DNA of 39,576 nt from a virus, in IMG/VR virus record IMGVR_UViG_3300017991_000208, positions 1 through 39,576 of that record. One strand, written 5' to 3'. How positions within the stretch are numbered: the first letter of the stretch is position 1; each line of letters begins with the position of its first letter. This document shows positions 9,393 through 35,842 of this stretch, one piece after another. A model generated the notes under the pieces. The model had not been told where the DNA came from. It was given only the letters and a program-made list of their open reading frames with translations, and did no database searches. A program made the translations under genes and the position numbers.

Positions 9393-9875
9393 TTAGTCTT
9401 TCTTTATAACAAGAATAGTAACGAGTGCAATTGTACTTGCAATTACGTCACCAGCGCAAACTATCTGTAAAGTCCCATCTTTTGCAATTTCAGAATAGTC
9501 GTTATCAATTGTTGCAGGTTTAACCATCGTTTTATCAACAGCGCAAACCATTGCATTTGTAATATCATTAGTACCATCTGTTAATTTAATAGTACCATTT
9601 GCAGATGCACCTCGCGGCTGTACAATAACATCAACAATCTCAAATTTAAAAGGAGCGTCTGCATCAAAAATTTTGATATCAGCAGCTCCAGTTGTCACAT
9701 CCTCAACTATAGCAATTAAAGGAGCATCTTTACTTTCAAGAGTTCCTAATTTAGCAGCATCTACTTCATCATCACCAATATGACGATTTTCCACTGCTTC
9801 ATCAGAAATATCTTGAGGAGATACGCCTTCTATAGTTGAATCAGGATTATATGTACTAGCTGTTCTTTTAGACAT
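9393..9875 (-). CDS. Small head decoration/fibre-type protein (160 aa)
   Basis: The protein begins MSKRTASTYNPDSTIEGVSP, has a polar N-terminal arm, and from about residue 65 forms a beta sandwich: FKFEIVDVIVQPRGASANG, then TIKLTDGTNDITNAMVCA, and a strand-rich end (TLQIVCAGDVIASTIALVTI). The pattern of a long strand, GTIKLTDGTNDIT, a loop with conserved D/DxS, and a final GDV..S strand is one I have seen in phage structural proteins coded right next to the major capsid protein. It probably decorates the capsid. A terminator follows it directly. The exact family is uncertain. Confidence 0.6.
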   Translation of the reverse strand: MSKRTASTYNPDSTIEGVSPQDISDEAVENRHIGDDEVDAAKLGTLESKDAPLIAIVEDVTTGAADIKIFDADAPFKFEIVDVIVQPRGASANGTIKLTDGTNDITNAMVCAVDKTMVKPATIDNDYSEIAKDGTLQIVCAGDVIASTIALVTILVIKKD

Positions 9876-10189: not shown

Positions 10190-10222
10190 AAAACCTATGC
10201 TGGAGTTTTATCTCCAGCATAG
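10190..10222 (-). terminator. Intrinsic terminator after the major capsid gene
   Basis: A perfect 11-bp stem, CTATGCTGGAG with CTCCAGCATAG (bases 10212-10222 and 10195-10205), with a six-base loop, is followed on the minus strand by GTTTTAT. It stands 20 bases after the stop of the capsid gene, so it would partly shield downstream small genes from capsid-level expression. Confidence 0.8.
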
Positions 10223-10242
10223 ATATTTATATTGTTAATCCA

Positions 10243-11715
10243 TTACAGATCAAGTAAAGGATTTCTAATTGCTTGATTTACACCTACGTTTTTAAATAAT
10301 ACATAACGTAAAGGTGCATACCATTTAGGTACAACATAGAAATTAACTGTACCCCATCTGTAAGGAGCGATCTTTGCATATTCTACCTTATGAATAGGAG
10401 CCAATTGTGAAAGAGACATAGTTCTAAGTTCTCCAGCAACTGTATTATCAAGTAATACAGACTGTGAAGTACCGGGAATCTCTTCATTCTTATCTTGATA
10501 TGATGCGGCTGCTGCCGTTACCGTTGTCAGATATCTAAAAACACCTGACGCGGGAGATGTTTCACCATAAATTTCATAAGCTGTAGGTGCATAAGGTCCG
10601 CCACCAGATGTTATAGTAATTGTCAAAGCTCCACCAGCTGCAACTGTTTTTACAGTTGTTGCTGCACAAGCTGCTGATTTACCATATTGATTGATGGCTG
10701 AGACTCTATATTGATAATCGCCTGCAATTCTTCCACCACTACCAGAAGCTGCCCATAATGAACCCACAACTGTAGGAGCATTTATTGCTACTGAAGCTGA
10801 AGGTGTTGCGGGAGCTTTTGTTGATGTTGCACCTTCTATTAAAGTAGAAGGAGTTGATGGATCTTTAATTTTAGGAACGCCTTGAGCTTCAACACTTAAG
10901 AAAATATCAGGCTTTAAATTGAAGTTCCCAAAAGCTGTCCTCATCTGTGTCACCGCGTGTCCAAGAGCAAGCAACCCGCTTGTTGCAGAAACTGCTTCTA
11001 CATTAATACGAGCATTGTTTGCTGTTGTACTCAATAACTGATCTATAGAAGTCTGTACAGCAAGTGAATTATACATGTCAGTTGGAACACCAAAATTAGC
11101 TGCAATTATTTCTGCTCCATCTCTCATGTTTGCTTCTGTAATTGTTGAACCTCTAAGATCTATAACGTGATCAGTCGAACCGTTATTCTTAATTGTCTTA
11201 ATAATACCATCAAATGACTGAGGTACCATCGTACTATCACCATAGAATAAATTCTTTTCAGTTGTTCTAAGAGCTCTCATCATAGCTGCCTGTACTGAAA
11301 GAACTTCTGCATTAGAAATTGTTTTGACATACGGTAATACATCAGAAACTTTCCAAAGCGTTCTCACATACTTAATGACAGCGTAAGCTCTTCGAAAATC
11401 AGGATCTCCTTCTTCTGGGTTTTCCATCTGACTTACAAAACCGCCTTCTGTTCCATATCCGTCCTGAACTGAATATTCTTCAAGAGTACTATAAGCTTTT
11501 GTTATACCTATATCCTTAAAGAGTTTTAAATGCTTTTCCTGAAATGTAAGCATTGCTAACGTACTTTCAAGAGATTGCATCTGGAGAGCTCCACCTTGAT
11601 TAAGTGCAGCGATATCAGTCACGCCTTCCTGAGCTTGAAGGGCTTTAACTAAATCATTAACTTCAGCAAGAGAGGATTCTCCATAGCCTTCAAACATTTG
11701 TTCACGAAAATCCAT
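10243..11715 (-). CDS. Major capsid protein (490 aa) with an inserted Ig/FN3-like domain
   Basis: The N-terminal part (LNQGGALQMQSLESTLAMLT, then KLFKDIGITKAYSTLEEY) and the EGGFVSQMENPEEGDPDFRR / YVRTLWKVSD segments match the HK97-fold capsid proteins of large phages. These usually have an N-terminal arm, a long spine helix (SVQAAMMRALRTTEKNLFYG) and a P-domain. At about residues 300-415 a Gly/Ala/Thr-rich beta segment (RIAGDYQYRVSAINQYGKSA, AYEIYGETSPASGVFRYLTT) looks like an inserted immunoglobulin/FN3-type surface domain. A strong AGGAGG site precedes the ATG. The gene is flanked by scaffold upstream and a terminator downstream, as expected for the most highly made protein. Confidence 0.85.
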   Translation of the reverse strand: MDFREQMFEGYGESSLAEVNDLVKALQAQEGVTDIAALNQGGALQMQSLESTLAMLTFQEKHLKLFKDIGITKAYSTLEEYSVQDGYGTEGGFVSQMENPEEGDPDFRRAYAVIKYVRTLWKVSDVLPYVKTISNAEVLSVQAAMMRALRTTEKNLFYGDSTMVPQSFDGIIKTIKNNGSTDHVIDLRGSTITEANMRDGAEIIAANFGVPTDMYNSLAVQTSIDQLLSTTANNARINVEAVSATSGLLALGHAVTQMRTAFGNFNLKPDIFLSVEAQGVPKIKDPSTPSTLIEGATSTKAPATPSASVAINAPTVVGSLWAASGSGGRIAGDYQYRVSAINQYGKSAACAATTVKTVAAGGALTITITSGGGPYAPTAYEIYGETSPASGVFRYLTTVTAAAASYQDKNEEIPGTSQSVLLDNTVAGELRTMSLSQLAPIHKVEYAKIAPYRWGTVNFYVVPKWYAPLRYVLFKNVGVNQAIRNPLLDL

Positions 11716-11716
11716 A

Positions 11717-12460
11717 TTAATTCACCTCCTGTTTTGATATATTACTTTTAATCAAATTAAGAGTATCGGGCTGAAGTGATTTCAGATCATACCCAGATAA
11801 CTCATATTTAGTAATCTCGGCAGAATCTACTGAACCTTCCTGAACTGCTTTCATGAGTATTCCTTTAACAGCCTTTTTTGAAGGCATATTAATTGAATCT
11901 TCATTAAATCCAGATTTTTCTAATACATCTTCTTTTGTTATTTTACCTTTTACTCTGTTTGGAGTATTACTGATCCCTTCTACTTCTTCTGAAATTGATT
12001 TAATCAATTCAGTTGAAGATTCAAAAGTTTCAGCAATACTTTTTTGAAGATCGTTTGCTTCTTCCTGTGATTTTTTTAAATCACTAATCTCTTCTTTCAA
12101 ACCTCCAATCTCGTCGATTGCAGTTGAAAGAACATCAATAAATGATTTAAGAACAGGAACAGCATCAATAACTTCTTCATTATCGGCAATCGTTTCTTTT
12201 AAAGATTTTTCAACTTTAGAACTTTCTTCTTCTTCTTCCTCATCTTCGTCTTCTTCGTCATATTCTTTCATATAATTCTTGATTTTCTTTCTCATTTTTT
12301 CACTTTTTAAAAGCTCTTTGATCTCGCTATGAGATTTAGATTTAATAAGATCTCCCATCTTTTCAAGATTTTCATCAAGAGTCTTTTTTAAATCTTTTTC
12401 TTCAGAAGACTGATCTTCCTGAGGAGCGGTTGTGGAATCAATTTTTTCCTTATCGCCCAT
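11717..12460 (-). CDS. Head scaffolding protein candidate (247 aa)
   Basis: The protein is very acidic with long helices: a run of D/E around residues 65-80 (YDEEDEDEEEEEESSKVEKS), a long coiled-coil stretch (VLSTAIDEIGGLKEEISDLK, and the following KSQEEANDLQKSIAETFES) and a helical end. It has no enzyme motif. Capsid scaffolds are typically acidic and coiled-coil, sit between protease and capsid genes, and are removed by the protease during maturation. The gene overlaps nothing but is one base from the capsid gene's start region, consistent with co-translation. Call based on composition and order. Confidence 0.7.
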   Translation of the reverse strand: MGDKEKIDSTTAPQEDQSSEEKDLKKTLDENLEKMGDLIKSKSHSEIKELLKSEKMRKKIKNYMKEYDEEDEDEEEEEESSKVEKSLKETIADNEEVIDAVPVLKSFIDVLSTAIDEIGGLKEEISDLKKSQEEANDLQKSIAETFESSTELIKSISEEVEGISNTPNRVKGKITKEDVLEKSGFNEDSINMPSKKAVKGILMKAVQEGSVDSAEITKYELSGYDLKSLQPDTLNLIKSNISKQEVN

Positions 12461-12475
12461 AATATTTACCTCCTC

Positions 12476-13378
12476 TTAAAATGTTAATTTAGCTATTGAA
12501 GCACTATTTGTTGCAATTAGCTTTATAATTTCTTCGGCTTCTTCTTTATTGAAGCCTTTATCTTCAAAATATTTTTGATAATCTGAATAATTTCCTTTTA
12601 AATTACCTGAGACAAGACTATCCATAATGAATGGAATTGCATTTCTTATTTTTCTATAATCAACGTTTTTCTTTTTCTTATCCCCTTCAATAGATTGCAT
12701 TTGAACAGCTTGTCCACCAGAAAGATTTGCTATATTTGTAACGCTCCCTGCTTCTAAAGCTTTATTTAAAAATTCTACATCAGAAAATGATTTTAAGAAT
12801 TCATCATAAGACGAAAATTGTATTTCATAGTTCTCATCTCCATTAAATGACTTTATTAAACTTACTGAAGTTTCTTGGTGAACAGCTTTCTGCAACGGAG
12901 TGATAGCGATATGTTTGAGACTTATCTTAGAAATTGAATTTATTTTTTTCTTCGTAGCTTTATCTACATCAGAAGATTTTTGTAATATTTTCCCTCCCAA
13001 AGAAGCTCCAAATATTTTACTTCCATTTCTTAATGCAGGCATTATTGCATTGTCTACATAAGGATTCCCTTTAAAAAGAAAACCGTGACATACGGGTACT
13101 CCTCTCTCTGAATCTATAAACAGTTTCTGAGGCTCACCAATTATTGCAGTCGCTCTTTCTACTGGAGTACTTCCTAAAATAGAAATATGATCATAGTCTA
13201 TTACACCATCATAAATGAAAGATTTTATACAATCATCATCAAAAGCTTTTAAAAGTATTTTATCATTTACTCTATCTATTGTAGGCTTGTTTGGAATAAT
13301 TTCGACTGGTATTCTTCCATTTGTTTCTTCTCCAGTCTTTTTAATTAAAGCAGGAAATGAAAATTGATTTAATTCCAT
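12476..13378 (-). CDS. Prohead maturation protease with C-terminal extension (300 aa)
   Basis: I take ATG 13378 (MELNQFSF) because GGAG lies five bases upstream; an earlier ATG at 13387 overlaps that site. Residues ~55-165 carry features expected of the prohead-protease fold: DYDHIS with the likely catalytic histidine, FGASLGGKIL with the likely serine, and LKHIAITPLQKA closing the core. The C-terminal ~100 residues contain VTNIANLSGGQAVQMQSIE, very similar to the N-terminus of the capsid protein, followed by a helical tail. It would cut scaffold and capsid (and perhaps tagged cargo) in the immature head. First gene of its operon, behind a promoter and an in-leader terminator. Confidence 0.75.
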   Translation of the reverse strand: MELNQFSFPALIKKTGEETNGRIPVEIIPNKPTIDRVNDKILLKAFDDDCIKSFIYDGVIDYDHISILGSTPVERATAIIGEPQKLFIDSERGVPVCHGFLFKGNPYVDNAIMPALRNGSKIFGASLGGKILQKSSDVDKATKKKINSISKISLKHIAITPLQKAVHQETSVSLIKSFNGDENYEIQFSSYDEFLKSFSDVEFLNKALEAGSVTNIANLSGGQAVQMQSIEGDKKKKNVDYRKIRNAIPFIMDSLVSGNLKGNYSDYQKYFEDKGFNKEEAEEIIKLIATNSASIAKLTF

Positions 13379-13391
13379 ATTCTCCATAAAT

Positions 13392-13430
13392 AAAAAAAAG
13401 TCCAGTATGCCCTCTTAAACATACTGGACT
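13392..13430 (-). terminator. Strong intrinsic terminator in the leader of the protease operon
   Basis: An 11-bp perfect stem (AGTCCAGTATG with CATACTGGACT) and a ten-base loop are followed by eight T on the minus strand, then directly by the ribosome site of the protease gene. It lies about 50 bases downstream of the promoter at 13486-13514, so it would stop that promoter's own transcripts unless relieved. It could also end transcripts from the upstream operon. Confidence 0.85.
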
Positions 13431-13485
13431 TGTGTCCTTAAAAATAAGATTGTATACAAAAAAACCTTTGTTACTTAATAAGTAC

Positions 13486-13514
13486 AATATATATCAGCTT
13501 CATTGAAAAGTAAA
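13486..13514 (-). promoter_or_regulatory. Sigma-70-type promoter for the protease-capsid operon
   Basis: On the minus strand the -35 is TTTACT (13509-13514), the spacer is 17 bp and the -10 is TATATT (13486-13491). The predicted start is near 13479. It is the only good promoter in the 190-base gap between the glycosylase-like gene and the protease. Its architecture is matched by the promoter at 28524-28552, including an identical upstream palindrome at the same distance. Confidence 0.65.
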
Positions 13515-13521
13515 CCTATTT

Positions 13522-13546
13522 TTTCAATATTTTTGAAACTTTTTTA
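13522..13546 (-). promoter_or_regulatory. Palindromic element upstream of the 13.5-kb promoter
   Basis: On the minus strand: AAAAAAG, then TTTCAA, five bases, TTGAAA, ending 7 bp before the -35. The same element with the same spacing is found at 28560-28582. An operator, activator site or A-rich UP element are possible; a weak AT-rich hairpin for transcript ends is another possibility. Confidence 0.5.
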
Positions 13547-13576: not shown

Positions 13577-14134
13577 TCATTTATTTTTATTTTCATTTTG
13601 TCCCCTCATAATCCAAACATAAGGCAAATCATCTCTTATATCTGGAAAAAACTGTCTATAATATTTTGGATCCTTTCTGACGAGATTACTCTTGTGGCTA
13701 TCAGTAAATACCAAACTATGTATCCATAAAGGAAAATCAACATGACCGTTTATATTCTCATATTCCATATTATTTTTAAACCCTCTTGACATCCATACTG
13801 ATAAACAAATATTATAATATAATTTCAAAGCATTTTCATAATTATACCACATTTTTACTATAGGATGATTTATATAACCAAGCTTTTTTATTTTGCCACC
13901 ACATATTTTTGATAATTCCACATTAATAATATCATTTAATTTTACAGAAATACAATATGATTTTTTTTCTCTATATATAGCTCCACATTTATTACATTTA
14001 TATTCATACCTATTTTTTTTATTTTTTATTATATTCAATATTTGCTTAGCCTCTACTCTCTGTTTTCCAAGCCTCTTATTATCAAGTATAGAAATAGATT
14101 TATAAAAATCTGAATATGGTAAGAATGTCTGCAT
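13577..14134 (-). CDS. DNA glycosylase-like (MSMEG_6728 / pyrimidine-dimer glycosylase type) with inserted zinc ribbon (185 aa)
   Basis: The start MQTFLPYSDFYKSISILDNK followed by RLGKQRVEAKQIL, then HPIVKMWYNYENAL, LVRKDPKYYRQFFPD and DDLPYVWI match the conserved blocks of the small family annotated as pyrimidine-dimer DNA glycosylase (MSMEG_6728 type). In the family RVEAxQIL is followed closely by the HP.V.MW block. Here about 45 residues are inserted, with C47xxC50, C61 and C78 forming a likely zinc site. The biochemical activity of this family is not well established; a DNA-repair or base-removal role is the usual annotation. Last gene before the terminator/promoter region. Confidence 0.75.
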   Translation of the reverse strand: MQTFLPYSDFYKSISILDNKRLGKQRVEAKQILNIIKNKKNRYEYKCNKCGAIYREKKSYCISVKLNDIINVELSKICGGKIKKLGYINHPIVKMWYNYENALKLYYNICLSVWMSRGFKNNMEYENINGHVDFPLWIHSLVFTDSHKSNLVRKDPKYYRQFFPDIRDDLPYVWIMRGQNENKNK

Positions 14135-16216: not shown

Positions 16217-16230
16217 AATTTTTCTCCTCT

Positions 16231-16287
16231 TTATTATTATAATACCAAGAAGCAACGAAATAGTTAACCGACTATTTTATTTATTTT
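16231..16287 (-). promoter_or_regulatory. 57-bp repeat containing an extended -10 promoter (copy A)
   Basis: Bases 16231-16287 are identical to 35786-35842. On the minus strand: AAATAGT-CGGTTA-ACTATTT palindrome, -35 TTAACT (16262-16267) inside its right arm, 17-bp spacer, TGG extension and -10 TATTAT (16239-16244). The predicted start near 16232 is right before the AGAGGAG ribosome site. The palindrome overlapping the -35 looks like a repressor site; it could also be the end signal of the gene upstream. Confidence 0.65.
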
Positions 16288-17822: not shown

Positions 17823-18006
17823 TATATATAATCCTCAAACCTATTAATTGATCTTCTTTATAATCAAAAGTTCCATTCGTATCTGACAATAAATGAACTT
17901 TATATATTCTACCCTCTTTAGTTTCTTTTATATTCACAACGTGCCCAATTCTATAATGACCTATAATCCTAACATATTCATTTAATTTTATTTTTGTTTT
18001 TTCCAC
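17809..18006 (-). CDS. Hypothetical SH3-like small protein (65 aa)
   Basis: The product MEKTKIKLNEYVRIIGHYRI then GHVVNIKETKEGRIYKVHLL and GTFDYKEDQLIGLRII is a run of short strands with a GHVVNI turn, as in small SH3-like barrels of phage and ribosomal origin. It overlaps the 1128-residue gene by 19 bases and the 67-residue gene by 14. No function visible; a nucleic-acid-binding role is only a possibility. Confidence 0.55.
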   Translation of the reverse strand: MEKTKIKLNEYVRIIGHYRIGHVVNIKETKEGRIYKVHLLSDTNGTFDYKEDQLIGLRIIYNAKN

Positions 18007-21000
18007 TTTCCTTCCTTAAAACTTTCTTCCATATATGGAAGAATTTTTGTATCATTTTCTAATACAGTTATTTTTATTCCTTTCTTTTCTAAATGACTTT
18101 TTAGAATTTTGATATATTCCTTGTAATCTTTTGCTTGATTCATTTTGTCAGCAAATTTTTTATCAGTATCTTCAAGCTCTGTCATTAATCTTTCAGCTCC
18201 TAAATTTCCAATAATAACTTCAGCAAACATACTCGTAGGCACAAAACTTGGAAGATGCCCCTCATACTTTCCATGAGACTGTCTATTTAAATAATCATTT
18301 ATACTCCCTTGAGCTGCTATATCTTTAGCCATATATTCGTAATATTTAGGATTCTCTTTAGCATTAAGTTTTGATTTATTAAAATGAATATTTCTATCTT
18401 CTTGTCTTGGTTGTATAATTTGTTTTAATTCGACATTAAACATTCTTTCAAAATCTCTAAAGCTCTCTGTATAGATTTTCCCAATATTTTCTTTTTTGCC
18501 AGCACCCAGTTTTCCTTTAGCATTTATATATTTTATTTCTAATTCATCATTACCTTCATCTATCTTAATGATTTTGAATGTATATTTATCTTCTTGAAAT
18601 TCATCTCCAACTTTATATCCTCTTTTTTCTTTTGTCCATTCTCTATGATCATACATTTCCCCACTATAAAAACTAGTCCCAGCTACTGGCGTCATATTAA
18701 AATCTGGATGTTCCATTATCTCAGGCTTTAATATTATACTTATTTCTCCGTATCCACTACCATTTCCGTTTGGACCAAGTATACTAAAGACATGTTTATT
18801 TGTTCCTAACTCTTTATCTACCTCATACCCTATAGCACCCGTCTCTATTTCTTCCCAATTATCGTATAATTTATTTAAGATTTTTGCTAAACGTCCTCCT
18901 TTCTTTACATCATAATTTCCACCAAGAAATTTAACAAGATTTGCTCTTGTTCCAGCTATCTTTCCAACATCATTTATCTCCTTGTATATTTTCTCAGTTA
19001 TTTCATCACCAAATTCTGGTCTTATCTCACTTTCAACTATTGCATATCCAGCTTGCTTTCCACTCTCTCCCAATTGTTCTAACGATTTCAACCCTCCACT
19101 TTTCAATACTCTTATAAACTTTTCTGCTGATAAACTATGTACTGGAGTAAGATTTTTAGCAAAATCTTCTAATACTTCAAGATGACTCATTTCATGAAGT
19201 ATTTGTTTTCTTTCTTTAAGTCTTTCTTCTTTATTTTTTAGTACACGTTTAAGTTCATCACCTTTAATTTTTTTCATTGAATAATCTTCATGCCAATAAG
19301 TTTTATTTTTAATTGCATTTTTTATATCAGCAATTTGTATTTTATAATGGCTATAAAGTTTTTCATGACCTTGATAGATAGAAGAATTCTTATATGAATA
19401 TTCTTTAATTTCATCATTCAAGAACTTCTCATTAGCTTTAAAATCTATTCCTTTATTCAATCCCTTTACTGGAATTTGTTCTAATAAAAATTTTTCTTTT
19501 TTTGTTTCTGATTTCTTTTCTTTTATTTCTCCTACAAATTTCCAGGTCTTATTACCGACCTTTTTAAACTTTCCACCCTTCCAATTTCTCACTGTCCCTA
19601 TAGGAAGAGTTTTAGCTTTAAGAAAGTTATTTTTATCTGATATTCTTAATTGAAATTTAGACTTTTTTAATTTTTTTTTATTGATTCTTTTAAATACTTC
19701 TATTTCATTTTTATTTAAATAAAGATATGCTATATATCTATGTAATCCATCCATTATTTTATTATTTTCATCTACAACAATTGGATGTAATTTTATACCA
19801 TTTTTTATTTTATCAACTAACGAATGAATTATACCAAGAGATTCTTCTGCATCAGGATCATCAATATAATCGTTATAAGTTAAATTACTTTCTATGTCGT
19901 TTATATTTACTTTTTCTTTTATAAATTTATCATTTTTTTCTGAATCAAATATAATATTCGCAGATTTAACACCTTCAGACATAATATTTTCTACTTCTTT
20001 TAGTGTAAATTGTTTCTTATTTTCATCTTTTAAATCTTCTATTTCATCTTTTACATAATCTACAATTTCTTTTTTTGTTTTAAATCTTTTACTCCATTCA
20101 TGATCATTTCCTTCTTTCTTATTAGTAACATATAAATCCCATGTATTTTTCTCGTCTGTTCTTTCTATATGAAAAGTTGTATCTTTAAATTTTACTTCAT
20201 ATTCTCCAAAATCTATTTTTTTTATTTTAATGCTTTCTTTTTCGTTTGTTGTTAATTTTCCTGTCTTTGGATCTTTGTACCAGTATTTGTAATTTCCCTT
20301 AACCCCAGTTCTTTTAACATATTTATGATTTCTAGATTTAAAAAATAAAGATTTCTTTAATTTTTTTTTATATATCCCCTTTATATATTGTGCTGGAATT
20401 TTACTGAAATTATATTCTGATGGATCGTCAATATCATATCCTTTTGATTCTTTAAAATCAAAATTTTCAGCATCATTTAATGGAATCTTTATATATAAAA
20501 TCGTATCTGGCCCATAAGACTCTGCGAATTCAAAATTATCTGTCAAACTAATATCTTCTTGTCCTACACTCCCAGATATTATTCCAGTTTCAGACGATGG
20601 TAATAACCCTTCTTTTAATATTTTATCTTTATTTTTCTTTGATGTTCCATGAAAAGCTCCAATATATTTTACTCCATTTTCTTCAAACATTCCTGATCTT
20701 GGTAAATTATAATAATTAAATTCTTTAAGTTTCTTTTCTATTTTTTGCTCTTCTTTTACAGGTACCCACTTACCTTCGGCTACTTTTTTCAATCCAGTCT
20801 TCTGGCTTATGTAACCTATTGGATACTTTTTAGCTTTAAAAAAATATAAGCCTGTTGATTTCTGTAATTTCTCTTTATTTAAAATATCTTCTATTATAAG
20901 ATATCCTTCAGGACAATAATTTTTTAATACTGTTTCATAAGCTTCATCGATTATTTTTCCTGAAATATACCATTTAAATAATGTAGCTAATATCTCTTTC

Positions 21001-21374
21001 TCTTCTGAATATACATGATCATTAATAAATATTCTACCATCACCATTATTTTTTTGAAGCTTCTTCTTAAGATCTTTTAGTTTTATTTTTGTTAAAGATC
21101 TTAAATCATCATATCTACAAATCTGATGTGCAAATTCATGAATGAAATCTCCTCTCCAATCAGAAGTAGATTCATAAATGATTATTATGCCTTCATCATA
21201 TTCAGCTCTAATATCATTTTTTTTATTAATGTCTTTATATAAATGAATAATTATAGGATTTTTTAATTTTATATATTGTTCAAGCTTCTCCACGACATCT
21301 CTCAGTTCACCATCGAGTGCCTGGTAGCGTTCATTTGACCAGCCCATATTATCTATATACAATTTTACATTCAT
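17988..21374 (-). CDS. Giant polyvalent protein: metallopeptidase, ART-like, ParB-like modules and cargo tags (1128 aa)
   Basis: Residues ~1-165: zinc metallopeptidase-like domain with HEFAH (79-83) and a downstream glutamate (YSEEKEILATLF). 180-205: tag with FFKAKKYPIGYISQKTGLKK. 236-335: ADP-ribosyltransferase-like segment (AFHGTSKKNKDKILKEGLLP, ISLTDN, TILYIKIP), where HGT and SLT recall the H-Y-E type. 345-375: KYVKRTGVKGNYKYWYKDPK tag. 465-560: ParB/sulfiredoxin-like N-domain (LHPIVVDENNKIMDGLHRYI). 585-615: second PIGTV tag. 720-910: helical region with HEMSH and a YGEISIILKPEIM block like polyvalent-protein modules. It follows the MuF gene. I infer a capsid-packaged, injected effector. 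No signal peptide or membrane helix is seen. Confidence 0.65.
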   Translation of the reverse strand: MNVKLYIDNMGWSNERYQALDGELRDVVEKLEQYIKLKNPIIIHLYKDINKKNDIRAEYDEGIIIIYESTSDWRGDFIHEFAHQICRYDDLRSLTKIKLKDLKKKLQKNNGDGRIFINDHVYSEEKEILATLFKWYISGKIIDEAYETVLKNYCPEGYLIIEDILNKEKLQKSTGLYFFKAKKYPIGYISQKTGLKKVAEGKWVPVKEEQKIEKKLKEFNYYNLPRSGMFEENGVKYIGAFHGTSKKNKDKILKEGLLPSSETGIISGSVGQEDISLTDNFEFAESYGPDTILYIKIPLNDAENFDFKESKGYDIDDPSEYNFSKIPAQYIKGIYKKKLKKSLFFKSRNHKYVKRTGVKGNYKYWYKDPKTGKLTTNEKESIKIKKIDFGEYEVKFKDTTFHIERTDEKNTWDLYVTNKKEGNDHEWSKRFKTKKEIVDYVKDEIEDLKDENKKQFTLKEVENIMSEGVKSANIIFDSEKNDKFIKEKVNINDIESNLTYNDYIDDPDAEESLGIIHSLVDKIKNGIKLHPIVVDENNKIMDGLHRYIAYLYLNKNEIEVFKRINKKKLKKSKFQLRISDKNNFLKAKTLPIGTVRNWKGGKFKKVGNKTWKFVGEIKEKKSETKKEKFLLEQIPVKGLNKGIDFKANEKFLNDEIKEYSYKNSSIYQGHEKLYSHYKIQIADIKNAIKNKTYWHEDYSMKKIKGDELKRVLKNKEERLKERKQILHEMSHLEVLEDFAKNLTPVHSLSAEKFIRVLKSGGLKSLEQLGESGKQAGYAIVESEIRPEFGDEITEKIYKEINDVGKIAGTRANLVKFLGGNYDVKKGGRLAKILNKLYDNWEEIETGAIGYEVDKELGTNKHVFSILGPNGNGSGYGEISIILKPEIMEHPDFNMTPVAGTSFYSGEMYDHREWTKEKRGYKVGDEFQEDKYTFKIIKIDEGNDELEIKYINAKGKLGAGKKENIGKIYTESFRDFERMFNVELKQIIQPRQEDRNIHFNKSKLNAKENPKYYEYMAKDIAAQGSINDYLNRQSHGKYEGHLPSFVPTSMFAEVIIGNLGAERLMTELEDTDKKFADKMNQAKDYKEYIKILKSHLEKKGIKITVLENDTKILPYMEESFKEGKWKKQK

Positions 21375-21849: not shown

Positions 21850-23142
21850 TTAAATTTTATATACCACCTTATTAATTGAACTGTCCCATTCCTCTACTGT
21901 AGGATCAATTTCGGACCAATAGTGAATACATTGCGGATGGGCAGGAATACATATCCACCAATTGGCTCCATTTCTCCCCACATTATTTTTACCGCGCCAT
22001 ATAGCATATCGAGCGTGTGGGTCGTTTATTTCATCATCGCTTAATGGCTTATCTACATACTTTACTATTGTCCCTAACCAATTAATACATTGTTTTGATG
22101 ATGTTGGTATTATACCCCCTGAAAAAACAAAATACGTACTTTTGCCTTCTTTCTTTTTCTGTTGATTTACAGCTTCTAAGTATCCGTTATTTAATGCGTA
22201 TGAAATTTCTGTTATACTCACTCTCCTCCAATCTCTGTTTATTGCGTCAATTGTTTTTTGTGAAAATCTTCTTCCAAGTTCATCTGTAGGATCTATCCAG
22301 AATAATCTTTGTGTTAATTCTTGAGCTGTCAACCCATCCTCTAACCCGCCCGTTATTTGTTCTCTAACTAATTTAACTATTTTGTTTTTTAGACTTCCGT
22401 CTTCTATTGCAAGATGTTCTGCAGCGTGTTGTTTTGAATATTCAATTGCTGCAATTTCTGGGTCAGACAGGTTAAATTTCTTTACTGCATCTTCTGTATT
22501 ATCAGGAATATAACCATACCTTGATTCAACATCGTCATGCGACATTTTCTTTTGTTCGTCAATTGGAATCCCATCTTCTTCCATTACTTGCATTAGTTTT
22601 CCCATTAAACCTGCTTTTACAACAAGCTCTTCTTCTAATGTCCCTATTTTATCTCCTAGAAAATCTACAATTTCTTTTGTCAAATTATTCCATTCTTCTG
22701 TCGTTAATGGCATTCCTGTTTCTGGGTTATATTTTAGTTTTCCTTTTATATTTAATGGTTGTAATGGCTTTCCTTTATTGAACCCAAATTTCTTAAAGAA
22801 GTTCTTTGCTATAGTGAATTTCTCTTTTAAATTAGAAAAAAGAGATTTATAAAACAAAGCATTTTCGATCTCTTCACCATTAGCAGCTTTTTGAAGAATA
22901 TCTAATGAAACTTTAACAGATTTTTGCATTATATTAGAAGGATCTACATTCAACTTTAATCCAACACCAATTGCTATTTGTTTGAATACATCCTGAACAT
23001 ATTCCATCAATGCTTCTTGATATTCTCTTACCCATCTGAAATCACTTAATTCTGCTTTAGTTATTTCTTTATCGGCTTTAATTAAAAGTGATTGTATTTC
23101 CCATTCTTTATTTTGTAAATGATTTGGTATAAATAATTTCAT
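21850..23142 (-). CDS. MuF-type minor head / head morphogenesis protein (430 aa)
   Basis: The C-terminal domain has the MuF pattern: WRRVSITEISYALNNGYLEA, then VFSGGIIPTSSKQCINWLG, and the terminal HPQCIHYWSEIDP motif where MuF/SPP1 gp7 proteins have HP.C.H. The N-terminal ~150 residues carry a helical, charged region and a lysine-rich patch (KEKFTIAKNFFKKFGFNKGK). MuF proteins are minor capsid components carried in the head and thought to enter the host with DNA; in many phages they are fused to effectors. Here the effector-like modules are encoded separately by the adjacent genes. It directly follows the portal-cargo set, as in other phages. Confidence 0.75.
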   Translation of the reverse strand: MKLFIPNHLQNKEWEIQSLLIKADKEITKAELSDFRWVREYQEALMEYVQDVFKQIAIGVGLKLNVDPSNIMQKSVKVSLDILQKAANGEEIENALFYKSLFSNLKEKFTIAKNFFKKFGFNKGKPLQPLNIKGKLKYNPETGMPLTTEEWNNLTKEIVDFLGDKIGTLEEELVVKAGLMGKLMQVMEEDGIPIDEQKKMSHDDVESRYGYIPDNTEDAVKKFNLSDPEIAAIEYSKQHAAEHLAIEDGSLKNKIVKLVREQITGGLEDGLTAQELTQRLFWIDPTDELGRRFSQKTIDAINRDWRRVSITEISYALNNGYLEAVNQQKKKEGKSTYFVFSGGIIPTSSKQCINWLGTIVKYVDKPLSDDEINDPHARYAIWRGKNNVGRNGANWWICIPAHPQCIHYWSEIDPTVEEWDSSINKVVYKI

Positions 23143-24584
23143 TATTCACTTCGACCATGTCTTTGTTCTTTTTTAATAACTTCTTCTTGTTTATAATTAT
23201 ATAAAAAATCTTTTACTTTATCTTTATCAAATTCTTTAGATAATTCTTTTTTCAGATATTTATCAATCGTATCTTGATCTGCTTCATGAGGTTCTAATCC
23301 ACTAAACAAAACAAATTCATCAACTATATTCTTTTCGTCTTGTTTTGATAATTTCTTTTTACTTTCAAATAAAATTTTCTGTTTTTCTTTTATTTGTTGT
23401 ATTGCTTCTCTTTGTTGTTTCTGAAAATTAGCTATTGATTTTTTACTTGCTTCTGGCCAAATTTTTGCAGCATTAACAACATTGCTTTCCATCTCTTTTA
23501 TTTCTTTATCATAAGCATCCATTTCTTGTTTTGTTTTATTTTCTTCTTTTAACCCGTTATTTAAATCTTTAATCTCCACTTTATTTATAATACTACCATC
23601 TTCCCATTTTACTTTCAATGTTCCATCATTATTGTTTTTAATAACTACTCCCTTATCGATTAATCCCGGCTCAAAACTTATTTCAACAGAATCTCCTTTT
23701 TTATAATCTTTTGTTTTTTTCTTTAAATTTACTTCTTTTGATTTTATTGAATTTATAAATTCTTTTTTATTCATTCTAACCGGTTCACTGTCTTTATCAG
23801 TTATAAACTGAACAAATTTATCACCTTTTTTCGTAATTTTTATTTTATCATTCTTACGTATTATTACTGATTTTCCACTTCTAGTTACTACATTAATATC
23901 TTTTTTTAACGGTATAAAATCTTTCTTCTTAACTTTTAATTTGCCATCTTTTATGTCAGCACTAATAGTTTCTTTCTCTACTTGTTTTCCTATTTTCTCT
24001 TTCTTAATCGGTATCCACAAACCTTCTTTAACTTTCTTTCTACCCTTACTTACTGTGCCTATAGGCATCTTCTTTCCTTTGATTAATATTAAACTTCCAT
24101 CATTTTTATTTGCTAATAGAACTCCCATTCTATCACCTCCTAACGATTTAATCATGCTTCCTTTCCATTTATCTGAAAATATTTTTTCTTTAAACTCATC
24201 CATTCCCATTTCTGTCATGCTACCAAAAAACCCCGGTCTATCGTATTGATTCATATACGCTTTCTTCGCTTCATCTGCTGAATTAAAACCCACCATGACT
24301 TTATCTTCGTCGTACTGTCTCGAAACTGGATCGTTCTGATGTACGATGTAAACAACGTCACTGTTTTTATTATTCCCGATATACGCATCCAAATGCTGTT
24401 TATCTTTTCCAATGGTTCCTTTTATATATCCATAAGGATAATGCATTTTAGTTTTCCATTCGCGACCATCTTTATCTGTTCCAGATCGAACAGAGCCTTT
24501 TTTGTTCTCTATAGAAATATCTAGACCATTTATCTTTGTTCTTCCTTGAAGTTTATATCCTGAAAATGTTAATGATTTTTTCAT
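23142..24584 (-). CDS. Polyvalent protein with pyrophosphatase-like (InPase) domain and cargo tag (480 aa)
   Basis: Residues ~45-135 read GYIKGTIGKDKQHLDAYIGN, then VVYIVHQNDP, YDEDKVMVGFNSADEAKKAY and GSMTEMGMDEFKEKI. This is the InPase (inorganic-pyrophosphatase-like) domain found in phage polyvalent proteins, with the usual acidic residues preserved. It is followed at about 170-195 by LIKGKKMPIGTVSKGRKKVK and then EGLWIPIKKEK, the cargo tag. The rest has KOW/Tudor-like strands (GVVIKNNNDGTLKVKWEDGS) and a helical tail. It abuts MuF (stop/start share base 23142), supporting packaging with the head. Enzymatic activity is not proven. Confidence 0.7.
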   Translation of the reverse strand: MKKSLTFSGYKLQGRTKINGLDISIENKKGSVRSGTDKDGREWKTKMHYPYGYIKGTIGKDKQHLDAYIGNNKNSDVVYIVHQNDPVSRQYDEDKVMVGFNSADEAKKAYMNQYDRPGFFGSMTEMGMDEFKEKIFSDKWKGSMIKSLGGDRMGVLLANKNDGSLILIKGKKMPIGTVSKGRKKVKEGLWIPIKKEKIGKQVEKETISADIKDGKLKVKKKDFIPLKKDINVVTRSGKSVIIRKNDKIKITKKGDKFVQFITDKDSEPVRMNKKEFINSIKSKEVNLKKKTKDYKKGDSVEISFEPGLIDKGVVIKNNNDGTLKVKWEDGSIINKVEIKDLNNGLKEENKTKQEMDAYDKEIKEMESNVVNAAKIWPEASKKSIANFQKQQREAIQQIKEKQKILFESKKKLSKQDEKNIVDEFVLFSGLEPHEADQDTIDKYLKKELSKEFDKDKVKDFLYNYKQEEVIKKEQRHGRSE

Positions 24585-24924: not shown

Positions 24925-25419
24925 TTATTTTATTTTTCTATAAATAAATTGATATATGTCGTTGCTTTCAAAACCATCTTCTACTAAATCAGCGAATATA
25001 CCATTAACAGCTTTACTAAATTTATCATAATCATTTTCATTCACTAATCCTCTCATTCTATCATATCTACCGCCCGTAGGAGTTCTCATTGCTGTACTAA
25101 CAAGAAATCTTAAAATGTCTACTCGTTCAAATCCTTCTTTATCTAAATCCTTTAATATAGCATTTGAAGATTCTTTAAGATCTTTTAAATCTTTTATTTT
25201 TGAAAGACCTTCCATTCTCTGTTCAGGTTTTAATATCTCACCATTTACTTTAGAATCTTTTTTTTCGTTCTTTACTGGTACCCACTTACCTTCGGCAACT
25301 TTTTTGTAACCTTTAGATACTGTACCTATTGGCATCTTTTTAGATTTCATTAAGTTGCCACCCTCGTCAATCCCCACTGATTTGAAAAAATCACTATCAT
25401 TTAAAAATGGCTGTATCAT
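24925..25419 (-). CDS. Tagged cargo-like protein (164 aa)
   Basis: N-terminal module MIQPFLNDSDFFKSVGIDEG then GNLMKSKKMPIGTVSKGYKK and VAEGKWVPVKNEKK shows both the KQPFLND-type and PIGTV-type tags fused directly. The remaining ~110 residues (residues 55-164) are helical, with FERVDILRFLVSTAMRTPTG and DYDKFSKAVNGIFADLVEDG; I recognise no family. A strong GGAGG site precedes the ATG, which overlaps the previous gene. Role proposed: capsid cargo of unknown activity. Confidence 0.65.
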   Translation of the reverse strand: MIQPFLNDSDFFKSVGIDEGGNLMKSKKMPIGTVSKGYKKVAEGKWVPVKNEKKDSKVNGEILKPEQRMEGLSKIKDLKDLKESSNAILKDLDKEGFERVDILRFLVSTAMRTPTGGRYDRMRGLVNENDYDKFSKAVNGIFADLVEDGFESNDIYQFIYRKIK

Positions 25420-25984: not shown

Positions 25985-26740
25985 TTAAAACTCCTTTAAA
26001 AACTGAATAAATTCTTGCCATATTTTAGATTTAGCGAGAAATTCTTTTGCAATCGGTTTTATATGTTTATTGACTAATTTTGTTATATTCGCTTTTGATG
26101 TCTTTGTTAATCTTGAAATAGAAGCTTTATTATAACCTTGCAACATGTAATCTAAAATCTGTTTTGCTTCTTTGCTTTTTATTCTTTCTTTCATCAATTC
26201 TATATTTCTCTTAAATTCAACTTCTTCTATATCTTTCTTTTGTCTTGGATCTTCTACAATCTCTTCTATTCCTTTAGAAGTCTCTTCTTCTTTAGAAGAA
26301 AATGAAGATATATACGCATCTCTATCTAATCCTTTCATTTCTTTTGCTATTCCTTTGAATATATATCCTGTCATATAGCTTCTTACATAAGATAAAAAAG
26401 CTTTTGAAGATTTTTTTACATTAAATTTATCTATAGCTTTTATAAAGCCTATATTTGCATTTTGAACTGAGTCATCTACATTTTTTATTTTTGACATTAT
26501 TCTATTAATAACATCCCTAACGAATACTTGATTTTGTGTTATAAATTCATTCCTTAATTCTATATCTTCTTTAAGTTTTTTTATATCTTTAGAAGAAATA
26601 ACATCAAGTCTTAATTTGTTTTCTTTTTTACTTATAGATACCCACTTTCCTTTACTTATTTTTTTCAATCCAGTCTTTTGACTTATATGCCCTATAGGAT
26701 ATTCTTTTGATTTCTCTAATTTCAATATCAATTTTTTCAT
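25985..26740 (-). CDS. Sigma-70-like factor with cargo tag (251 aa)
   Basis: Residues ~68-132 are a sigma region 2: NQVFVRDVINRIMSKI, then VDDSVQNANIGFIKAIDKFN with the D(D)xxQ..xxGxxxAxxKF core, and FLSYVRSYMTGYIFKGIAKE. Residues ~178-232 (RNIELMKERIKSKEAKQILD, YNKASISRLTKTSKANITKL) fit a region 4-type helix-turn-helix. Before them, residues 10-40 carry the cargo tag (KSKEYPIGHISQKTGLKKIS, KGKWVSI) seen in neighbouring polyvalent proteins. So this looks like a sigma factor carrying a virion tag, encoded next to the portal. It might be packaged and injected to redirect host RNA polymerase. Fold assignment is good, packaging is inference. Confidence 0.7.
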   Translation of the reverse strand: MKKLILKLEKSKEYPIGHISQKTGLKKISKGKWVSISKKENKLRLDVISSKDIKKLKEDIELRNEFITQNQVFVRDVINRIMSKIKNVDDSVQNANIGFIKAIDKFNVKKSSKAFLSYVRSYMTGYIFKGIAKEMKGLDRDAYISSFSSKEEETSKGIEEIVEDPRQKKDIEEVEFKRNIELMKERIKSKEAKQILDYMLQGYNKASISRLTKTSKANITKLVNKHIKPIAKEFLAKSKIWQEFIQFLKEF

Positions 26741-28383
26741 GGTAAGATCTCTATATAATCTTGTTTTGATTTTTCAAATTTAAATTCTTCTTTGGGTTGT
26801 TCTTTTTCTTTAGGTGTTTCTTCTATATCTTCTTCAGGTTCTTCACCAAATTCATTTCCAACACTCATCCCTCCTTGCATCTCACTCATCTGTTTCATTT
26901 GTTGTGCTTGTAGAAAGTTTGGATTATTAATTATATCTCCACCGTCTATAGGCTTAAGATCTTTTTCTTTTCTCTTTTCATTTATTGTCATATATACTTG
27001 TGTTTGTTTCTCATCTACATTAAGTTCTGCTAATTGATCTTTAGCTTCTATTCCAGTGAATTCCATTCTATAAGGATCCCATTCTGGTACTCTTTCAATT
27101 ATCTTATTAAGAATACTTTGAACGAAAGCTAATATATCTTTTAACCCTCGATCTCTACTATAAGTTATTTCATTTTGTCTATTTTCATATAATGTAGCTT
27201 GTGTTCTATTAAATCTTAAACCTAATTCTGCTGGGTCTATTCCGTGAATCGCACATATCCATGAAGCTAATGTCTGTGTATATTCATTGAACTCCATATC
27301 TCTATTCGGAGGAGCTATTGGTATCCATTTTGCGTTGTGCTGCAAAAATGGAGTTCTCCACATTCCTTTTACGCCTCGAAACATTGATATCCATTGTCTT
27401 TGAAGTTCTTCTAAATCACCTTGTTCAATTTTCTCTCCTTCGAAAGAAATTACTCCTTTAGGCTGTGAAGACGAATTAAATATCTCTTTATTATATGCCA
27501 TTGCAAATAGCCAAGCAGTTATCATATCGAGAGACATTTCAATGTAAGAATATCCATATCCTCTTTGCCTTATGTCTGTTCTTCTATTCATAAAATAAAA
27601 TATTAGATCATCTTTTGTGAATGTCTCTACAAACCTTCCATTTACTTCTTGTACGAATGCAATACTTTTGTCTCCCTGAAAACCCTTGTCTTTCATCGTC
27701 CTTTTAATCGTAGCAGCATCTAATATCCAATAATCTAATATTTTATTTTTTTTATTTCTTCTAAGACTTATAGCTACTTGATCAATAGTCATCATTTCTC
27801 TTGTAATCAATTCAACAACATCTGATAAACCTTCTTCTCTTTCATCTGCACCCTCGAAGTTAGTATATCCAGAATATAATAAAAACTCTTCAATCTCTTT
27901 CATTATTTTTTCATCTTTCTTAGAAGGCGTTCCTTTTTTATCTTTCAATTTAACCCTAAACCCAACATCGTCATCATTATAACTTGTTTCAGAAAAAGGT
28001 CTTATCTGCATACATCTTACATTTTGTATTGTACTTATTGGAGCTGTTCTTTGAGCTATTTGTCTAAGTATTCTAAACGATAAATGAAAGAATTTTTCTC
28101 TTACTCCATGAATGCCGTATCCCCATTCTGCCATCCATTCTGCTGGCTCTATCATTCCTTTTGGAGCATTTATCGCGCCATTCCCTTTTCTATTTTGTTT
28201 ATAAAATAATAAATCATTTTGATAACTTTTTAAAAAATCAATCTGTTGAAGTCCTGCATTCTCTATAGCTTTTAATTTTGCTAATTCGTGAATTGTCTGA
28301 GGCTGTGAATCAGAAGAAATATCGTTTTTAATATTGAAAGCTTCTTTAAACTTTCTTTCGCCTAATGAAGATAAAGACAACAT
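26737..28383 (-). CDS. Portal protein (548 aa)
   Basis: The size and order (first structural gene after the terminase module) fit a portal. The sequence has a long alpha/beta core with GYSYIEMSLDMITAWLFAMA, EYTQTLASWICAIHGIDPAE and LYENRQNEITYSRDRGLKDI, typical of HK97/SPP1-like portals where the wing, stem and clip alternate; LGLRFNRTQA is a characteristic loop. The C-terminal ~60 residues are disordered and acidic (GEEPEEDIEETPKEKEQPKE). It forms the dodecameric ring through which DNA is packed and ejected. Strong GGAGG site; the leader contains a promoter and a terminator. Confidence 0.85.
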   Translation of the reverse strand: MLSLSSLGERKFKEAFNIKNDISSDSQPQTIHELAKLKAIENAGLQQIDFLKSYQNDLLFYKQNRKGNGAINAPKGMIEPAEWMAEWGYGIHGVREKFFHLSFRILRQIAQRTAPISTIQNVRCMQIRPFSETSYNDDDVGFRVKLKDKKGTPSKKDEKIMKEIEEFLLYSGYTNFEGADEREEGLSDVVELITREMMTIDQVAISLRRNKKNKILDYWILDAATIKRTMKDKGFQGDKSIAFVQEVNGRFVETFTKDDLIFYFMNRRTDIRQRGYGYSYIEMSLDMITAWLFAMAYNKEIFNSSSQPKGVISFEGEKIEQGDLEELQRQWISMFRGVKGMWRTPFLQHNAKWIPIAPPNRDMEFNEYTQTLASWICAIHGIDPAELGLRFNRTQATLYENRQNEITYSRDRGLKDILAFVQSILNKIIERVPEWDPYRMEFTGIEAKDQLAELNVDEKQTQVYMTINEKRKEKDLKPIDGGDIINNPNFLQAQQMKQMSEMQGGMSVGNEFGEEPEEDIEETPKEKEQPKEEFKFEKSKQDYIEILP

Positions 28384-28404
28384 TTAAAACCTCCATAAAT
28401 AAAT

Positions 28405-28443
28405 AAAAAAAAAGCCACGCACCGAGATCAAGGTGCGCAGCTT
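28405..28443 (-). terminator. Strong intrinsic terminator in the leader of the portal operon
   Basis: A 12-bp stem (AAGCTGCGCACC with GGTGCGTGGCTT, two G-U wobbles that pair only on the minus-strand RNA) and an eight-base loop are followed by nine T on the minus strand, then ATTTATTTATGGAGG and the portal ATG. It lies about 75 bases downstream of the promoter at 28524-28552, as in the protease operon, so read-through must be controlled. Confidence 0.85.
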
Positions 28444-28523
28444 ATAATCAATTGTATAATGGGATGAAAAGTATATCTAGCATTATCCTTAATAAGATTT
28501 TGCTTTTTTAACATTACATTTAT

Positions 28524-28552
28524 ATTATATATCTTTTAAGTTACAATGTAAA
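28524..28552 (-). promoter_or_regulatory. Sigma-70 consensus promoter for the portal operon
   Basis: Minus strand: -35 TTTACA (28547-28552), 17-bp spacer, -10 TATAAT (28524-28529), predicted start near 28517. It is in the only non-coding stretch between the secreted-protein gene and the portal. It shares its layout and an upstream palindrome with the promoter at 13486-13514. Confidence 0.75.
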
Positions 28553-28559
28553 CAAGAAA

Positions 28560-28582
28560 TTTCAATATTATTGAAACTTTTT
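28560..28582 (-). promoter_or_regulatory. Palindromic element upstream of the 28.5-kb promoter
   Basis: Minus strand AAAAAAG, TTTCAA, five bases, TTGAAA, ending seven bp before the -35, the same sequence and spacing as at 13522-13546 (one base different in the loop). It starts shortly after the stop of the secreted-protein gene. Shared operator, activator or UP element; a weak transcript end is an alternative. Confidence 0.55.
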
Positions 28583-28587
28583 TATAT

Positions 28588-33058: not shown

Positions 33059-33075
33059 ACCTACCTCCTTAAATC

Positions 33076-33302
33076 AGCCGAGCGGCTACAGCCGTTGAAC
33101 CTCCGCTTTCGATTTTTCTACTCGCTACCGGGTACCGTTTAAAGCACTGCTCCGCTCGACCTTTGACAGATACTCTGTCTTATTATTTCAGGCGGTGCTG
33201 ACGGAGACACCCAGTCAACCCTCTGGACTTACGCCTTATAAGTCGTGTGAACCCTATAATTATAGGTTGCTTATAATTATATTTCTGCTACGATTTCCCG
33301 CC
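33076..33302 (-). ncRNA. GC-rich, highly structured RNA candidate (~227 nt)
   Basis: About 95 of 180 bases between 33075 and 33254 are G/C, far above the AT-rich surroundings, with no coding frame. The minus-strand RNA can form: a 10-bp stem closing 33076-33161 (GGTCGAGCGG with CCGCTCGGCT, two G-U pairs that exist only on this strand); hairpins GACAGA/TCTGTC (33165-33179) and GACTTA/TAAGTC (33226-33244); CCAG/CTGG (33211-33226); palindrome CCTATAATTATAGG (33253-33266); and GGCGG/CCGCC enclosing 33191-33302. It sits in front of the 137-residue gene, whose ribosome site follows. A regulatory or virus-specific RNA is plausible; I match it to no known family. Confidence 0.6.
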
Positions 33303-33327
33303 AACACCTTATTTGATTTTAAAAGAA

Positions 33328-35770: not shown

Positions 35771-35785
35771 AATATTTTCTCCTTT

Positions 35786-35842
35786 TTATTATTATAATAC
35801 CAAGAAGCAACGAAATAGTTAACCGACTATTTTATTTATTTT
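35786..35842 (-). promoter_or_regulatory. 57-bp repeat containing an extended -10 promoter (copy B)
   Basis: Perfectly identical to 16231-16287. Minus strand: palindrome AAATAGT-CGGTTA-ACTATTT, -35 TTAACT (35817-35822), 17-bp spacer, TGG extension and -10 TATTAT (35794-35799). It stands between the terminase stop and the ATG of a 50-residue gene. Two promoters with one sequence point to co-regulated accessory operons. Confidence 0.65.

Follow-up and report, generated by a model that had tools for sequence, protein, structure and literature searches.

Bacteriophage lambda has one late operon, and its pR'-tR' region, like those of the Q21 and Q82 systems, places a promoter, a short leader and an intrinsic terminator before head and other late genes. 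According to PMC7171158, Q is loaded at a DNA element in conjunction with a promoter-proximal pause, and according to PMC7969949 and PMC11150451, Q, AlpA and GafZ all act from elements between the -35 and -10 boxes. AlpA of Pseudomonas aeruginosa serves two operons, alpB and PA0807, and in each of them intrinsic terminators are predicted just ahead of the first gene (PMC7969949). The Caulobacter gene transfer agent combines an upstream activator with antitermination for phage-like structural genes (GafY/GafZ; PMC11150451), and at Pm of phage Mu the inverted-repeat site of the activator Mor lies just upstream of a sigma-70 promoter, with a partial UP element (PMC4390567).

Here we describe a related arrangement in a 39.6-kb piece of an AT-rich tailed-phage genome (29% G+C; IMG/VR record), the whole of which was analysed and is referred to as the window. 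The first-pass annotation had placed a promoter, a leader and a terminator before the protease-capsid operon (A) and again at 28405-28582, where the portal operon (B) starts, and the sequence bears this out. All genes treated here are on the minus strand of the window. Operon A comprises, in the direction of transcription:

13522..13545, minus strand: upstream element (UAS) A, AAAAAAG + TTTCAA-N5-TTGAAA, 7 nt before the -35 box
13486..13514, minus strand: promoter A, TTTACT-N17-TATATT
13432..13485, minus strand: leader A, 54 nt, containing AATCTTATTTTTAAGGA (13451-13435)
13392..13431, minus strand: intrinsic terminator A, a 34-nt hairpin (13431-13398, -19.7 kcal/mol) and a T run
13376..13385, minus strand: GGAG ribosome site and probable protease start ATG (13378-13376)
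12476..13387, minus strand: head maturation protease, first gene of operon A (phrog_3698)
11717..12460, minus strand: probable scaffold, by position only, with no family match
10243..11715, minus strand: major capsid protein (phrog_752, E 1.6e-84)
10193..10224, minus strand: terminator just 3' of the capsid gene, with no promoter before it

The corresponding features of operon B are:

28560..28583, minus strand: UAS B, AAAAAAG + TTTCAA-N5-TTGAAA, 7 nt before the -35 box
28524..28552, minus strand: promoter B, TTTACA-N17-TATAAT
28444..28523, minus strand: leader B, 80 nt, containing AATCTTATTAAGGA (28499-28486)
28428..28514, minus strand: possible 28-codon leader ORF, its ATG 9 nt after the -10 box and its TGA in the terminator loop
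28405..28443, minus strand: intrinsic terminator B, a 32-nt hairpin (28443-28412, -19.5 kcal/mol) and a T run
28381..28394, minus strand: GGAGG-N6-ATG, the ribosome site and portal start (ATG 28383)
26737..28383, minus strand: portal protein, first gene of operon B (PF04860, E 1.5e-18; phrog_12 and others)
25985..26740, minus strand: sigma-70-like protein, second gene of operon B (PF04542, E 9e-6; phrog_351)

The likeness to lambda lies in the order of promoter, short leader, intrinsic terminator and head genes. There are also differences: the Q element sits within the -35/-10 region and is associated with a promoter-proximal pause, whereas the element shared here lies upstream of the -35 box, and two separate head operons take the place of the single late operon of lambda. 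The Q family (PF06530, PF03589) was matched in none of the 8 records searched, all of them fragmentary; the controls were positive. In layout, AlpA is the nearest known system, with one factor, two operons, terminators before the first gene and a common promoter element; it differs in that its element is of another sequence and lies in the -35/-10 spacer, and in that it belongs to a chromosomal cell-death system (PMC7969949). In GafY/GafZ, the terminator follows the first gene and consists of 150-bp repeats, and the GafZ element is in the spacer (PMC11150451). The Mor site is centred at -43.5, as against about -51 for UAS A if transcripts start 7 nt after the -10 box, and the available part of PMC4390567 mentions no terminator for Pm. 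The gates of the window would work like the Q, AlpA and GafZ systems, but their membership finds no support in the spacers, which share no convincing element (A-B 9/17 positions, P 0.045; C-D, the two promoters of a relative introduced below, 5/17, P 0.64). No description of the arrangement in this phage group was found in the literature outside subscription papers.

The process we favour, with confidence evenly balanced for and against, is that each head operon is under the control of one copy of the same promoter-attenuator gate, which a putative read-through factor would open. Sigma-70-like, host-type promoters with a UAS would start transcription of both operons; early in infection most polymerases would halt at the in-leader terminator and release a short RNA; later, a putative phage factor, or a host factor recruited by the phage, in either case probably brought to the promoter by the UAS, would permit read-through and thereby turn on portal, protease and capsid at the same time. 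Read-through itself is what we infer from the layout, and constitutive partial read-through would give the same sequence picture.

Relatives were gathered by scans with the protease, portal and capsid. Three contigs (G005, G006 and G007; loci L004-L007) are near-identical to the window, have the same leaders and were left out of independent counts. Four close relatives (G001-G004) have portals 57-62% identical where present, and the 97-kb relative G008 (L083) has a portal and a protease each of 51% identity. G003, which begins within the portal gene, and G004, which stops within the protease gene, are without a leader. The comparison comprises a small set of seven leaders from four phages: A and B (protease and portal of the window), C and D (protease and portal of G001), E (portal of G002), H (protease of G008) and the G008 portal leader. 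Protein, DNA-pattern and alignment scans of viral contigs, and one scan of genome contigs, yielded no further leaders of the group.

The protease is 25-27% identical to five phage proteins, of which three carry an annotation as capsid or head maturation protease. Its translation probably begins at ATG 13378 rather than at the 5'-most ATG 13387, because the former sits behind GGAG and agrees with the start in G001. The scaffold candidate has conserved counterparts in G004 and G008. The protease leader is immediately preceded by a gene for a pyrimidine dimer DNA glycosylase-like protein (13577-14134, minus strand; PF03013, E 5.7e-22).

Terminators A and B both have the GC-rich hairpin, with a T run directly after it on the transcribed strand, that defines an intrinsic (Rho-independent) terminator; the T run of A is followed by GGAGAATATG. 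The perfectly paired arms comprise 12 bp, one more than first reported. Only three strong coding-strand terminators occur in the window, namely A, B and the one just 3' of the capsid gene, and all those found in G001 (2) and G002 (1) are leader terminators. An in-leader terminator is present in six of the seven leaders (A, B, C, D, E and H), behind a leader of 41-81 nt, and is absent from the G008 portal leader. In A-E the stems range from -16.4 to -20.4 kcal/mol and the terminators lie 19-28 nt before the start codon. The hairpin of H, too long for the automatic scan and found by reading the sequence, has a 15-bp stem and a long loop that encloses the ribosome site and start codon, followed by T8. 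The stems are unrelated in sequence and the leaders are not conserved between phages, while a T run follows every in-leader stem. Diverged relatives retain the layout although their stems have changed, which suggests selection for having a terminator in this position, and on these comparisons the succession of promoter, leader and terminator is a real and conserved regulatory layout.

A short RNA would be the product of every such promoter-terminator pair, and the G008 hairpin has both ribosome site and start codon within its loop. The promoters might then mainly make short stable RNAs, or the hairpin might mainly protect or shape the mRNA 5' end, termination being secondary. We regard this as highly improbable, as a functional small RNA would usually need conservation of the leaders between phages, which is not seen, and as the T run found after every stem is needed for termination only.

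A simpler purpose, raised as an alternative in the first-pass annotation, is that each terminator only ends upstream transcripts. This would predict a terminator ahead of the promoter, where the previous gene ends. Those of the window lie 144-145 nt after the end of the previous ORF and close to the next start codon, and the alternative is weakened accordingly. In G008, a separate terminator (24185-24206 of the contig) precedes the promoter, 23 nt past the previous gene, and the in-leader hairpin still follows; a role confined to stopping upstream transcripts is unlikely, because that upstream terminator already closes the previous operon.

A broader form of the same idea is a constitutive attenuator or insulator, where a fixed fraction of polymerases passes, read-through from upstream is stopped, the levels of portal and head genes are tuned with no regulated factor, and timing comes from the promoter and UAS alone. 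Intrinsic terminators leak, those of A-E would also block upstream transcripts, and a plain terminator 3' of the capsid gene is found both in the window and in G004. In distant phages with the same portal motif, all five unique upstream regions with a near-portal terminator have it after the previous gene, with no sigma-70-like promoter between that gene and the terminator, showing that promoterless terminators before the portal do exist. We nevertheless judge this explanation to be possible though somewhat unlikely: the hairpin retained in G008 would be superfluous as an insulator, the siting away from the previous gene's end does not suit one, and a very strong terminator would seem a costly way of tuning bulk genes such as the capsid.

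A second class of promoter, an exact 58-nt repeat at operon starts, is also relevant here:

35785..35842, minus strand: second promoter class, copy 1, at an operon start; short leader, no terminator
16230..16287, minus strand: second promoter class, copy 2, at an operon start; short leader, no terminator

These promoters carry an inverted repeat, AATAGT-CGGTTA-ACTATT, over the -35 box and have TGGTATTAT as -10 box; a relative occurs in G001 (locus entry L022:728, plus strand). Because this class is without a terminator, and the terminators of the distant phages are without a promoter, the in-leader terminator belongs to the promoter class of the head genes.

The exact promoter form of the head genes, TTTACW-N17-TATAWT, has two matches on both strands of the window, which are sites A and B (expected 0.33), and two matches are reached in 6 of 100 shuffles. 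A looser sigma-70 scan gave nothing clearly over chance (126 vs 118.8; 95 vs 112.6), so lone promoter matches mean little in such a composition.

Over the 38 nt preceding the -35 box, blocks A and B are identical at 26 positions, and C and D, both from G001, at 32, agreement that none of 5000 shuffles reached in either case; the same holds for A and H (25/38; 0/5000). B-C (25/38; 1/5000), B-D (24/38; 4/5000) and B-H (23/38; 20/5000) follow. The rest of the fifteen pairs, A-B being set aside, are weaker, among them A-C (339/5000), A-D (1283/5000) and every pair with E (A-E 17/38; 232/5000), and the G002 block matched no better when moved by one base. Blocks from one and the same phage are the most alike, as would be expected if the site follows its binding protein. 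The -35 box and its distance from the UAS are conserved in the relatives. Before the G002 portal gene, AAAAAGTTTCAA is present, but the second half-site is degenerate and the -35 and -10 boxes are irregularly spaced. Both UAS copies in G001 overlap the stop codon of the preceding gene. The G008 portal leader has TTTACA-N17-TATAAT without the UAS block and without a terminator; UAS and terminator therefore go together, both being present in six leaders (the UAS of G002 in degenerate form) and neither in this one.

Several features first taken to be shared were confirmed in part. The spacing at the two sites of the window is identical from the UAS to the -10 box, but the leaders, both AT-rich, differ in length (54 vs 80 nt). 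The palindrome is perfect in A and B, where by itself it is marginal (P 0.02 and 0.05 for the two copies), but it is not kept as a palindrome in the relatives, and a conserved palindrome was rejected as the common element because perfect copies occur in A and B only; CAA-N5-TTG is kept in A-D and absent from G002 and from the G008 protease leader. Further copies in the window, the search for which had been suggested, are at chance level when 2 mismatches are allowed (15 vs 15.9). Similarly, the stretch said to be common to the two leaders exists as an exact 9-nt match of marginal significance (P 0.04) with no counterpart in the relatives. In 9 of 10 pairs, the first 25 transcribed nt show no sharing beyond chance. 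The suggestion of attenuation or antitermination fits the conserved layout with its terminator, although neither the palindrome nor the leader stretch is conserved and read-through stays conjectural.

An UP element was considered as sole cause of the shared block. Between -59 and -38 the six promoters match the full UP consensus at 7 to 12 of 14 positions, and just one of the six, C, beats shuffles (P 0.027), so that an UP element as the only cause was dropped, while some UP-element character of the block is conceivable.

Could the leader RNA itself open the gate? In ribosome-mediated attenuation, a ribosome on a short leader ORF would cover the 5' arm of the terminator and let the polymerase through. 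Leader B has its 28-codon ORF ending in the terminator loop (shuffle P 0.004, the ORF having been picked after the fact), G002 has a 27-codon ATG ORF with its stop in the 5' arm (P 0.003-0.0045, likewise chosen after the fact), and the G001 portal leader has a 17-codon ORF that ends before the stem (P 0.19); in all three the ATG is 9-10 nt after the -10 box. The peptides, however, are not convincingly alike, the ORFs of B and G002 are without a Shine-Dalgarno site, and the protease leaders offer at best a TTG ORF (A, P 0.05), with none in G001 and, as read by eye, no ATG ORF into the hairpin in that of G008. ATG-started leader ORFs overlapping the terminator are thus confined to B and G002 and are not kept across the group, and we consider this mechanism quite improbable.

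The remaining RNA-based route, antitermination by a folded leader alone as in put, is to our mind extremely improbable. Small hairpins with A-rich inner loops can be drawn in the leaders of B and G002, but leaders A-E, taken without their terminators, are not more stably folded than shuffled sequences (z +0.36 to -1.61), those of the window having no stable fold of their own (z -0.90 for A, -0.39 for B). Hairpins picked by eye in B, the G001 portal leader and G002 as candidates for a put-like or riboswitch-like leader do not beat shuffles, and pairing of the leader with the 5' arm of the terminator as an antiterminator does not exceed shuffles in A-E (P 0.15 to 0.91). Rfam gave no match, either in the window or at those leaders of relatives that were searched.

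Returning to a protein factor acting through the UAS, the same 8 fragmentary records that were searched for Q had no match to NusG (PF02357; controls positive), and a search for PF06323 gave no match, its control being silent. An unlikely but specific version of the favoured process is antitermination of a new kind: a phage protein, bound as a dimer at the 24-bp UAS, would both activate the promoter and make the polymerase pass the terminator before portal and protease, with the UAS co-evolving between the two promoters of each phage. If regulated read-through is right, it sets the timing of head genes in a phage group so far undescribed, with paired gates coordinating portal and capsid, an addition to the few non-lambdoid systems with antitermination of virion genes. 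The signature, a shared upstream block and a terminator abutting the ribosome site, could then help to trace the factor.

The sigma-70-like protein encoded behind the portal gene has a tag in its N-terminal region, K.KK.PIGTVSKG.KK..EGKW.P..KK, that recurs in other proteins of the head region. The tag is found by pattern in four ORFs of the window (25985-26740, minus strand, 17988-21374, 23142-24584 and 24925-25419) and in relatives, where seven ORFs of G003 carry eight copies between them and G001, G002 and G004 have one each; alignment also places it in the sigma homologue of G001. It resembles a head-targeting tag, and packaging of the sigma factor in the virion is a possibility. The structure model of this protein is weak (pLDDT 69.9); sigma factors are among its top structural matches, none with E <=0.001, and by sequence it matches solved sigma factors at E 4e-4 and weaker.

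Elsewhere in the window, about 250 nt at 33059-33327 (minus strand) have 45% G+C, compared with 29% in the phage, and a strong predicted fold of -80.2 kcal/mol (z -3.1); Rfam yields nothing for it at the gathering score, nor anything convincing with E allowed up to 10. At the start of the G008 protease gene, an ORF with a protease-like N-terminus runs into what by eye looks like a GIY-YIG-like endonuclease, after which a second protease start follows. The same contig carries, at L083:8338-8403 and 9407-9467 (minus strand), one match to the type II hammerhead ribozyme over the gathering score and one to twister P5 just under it.
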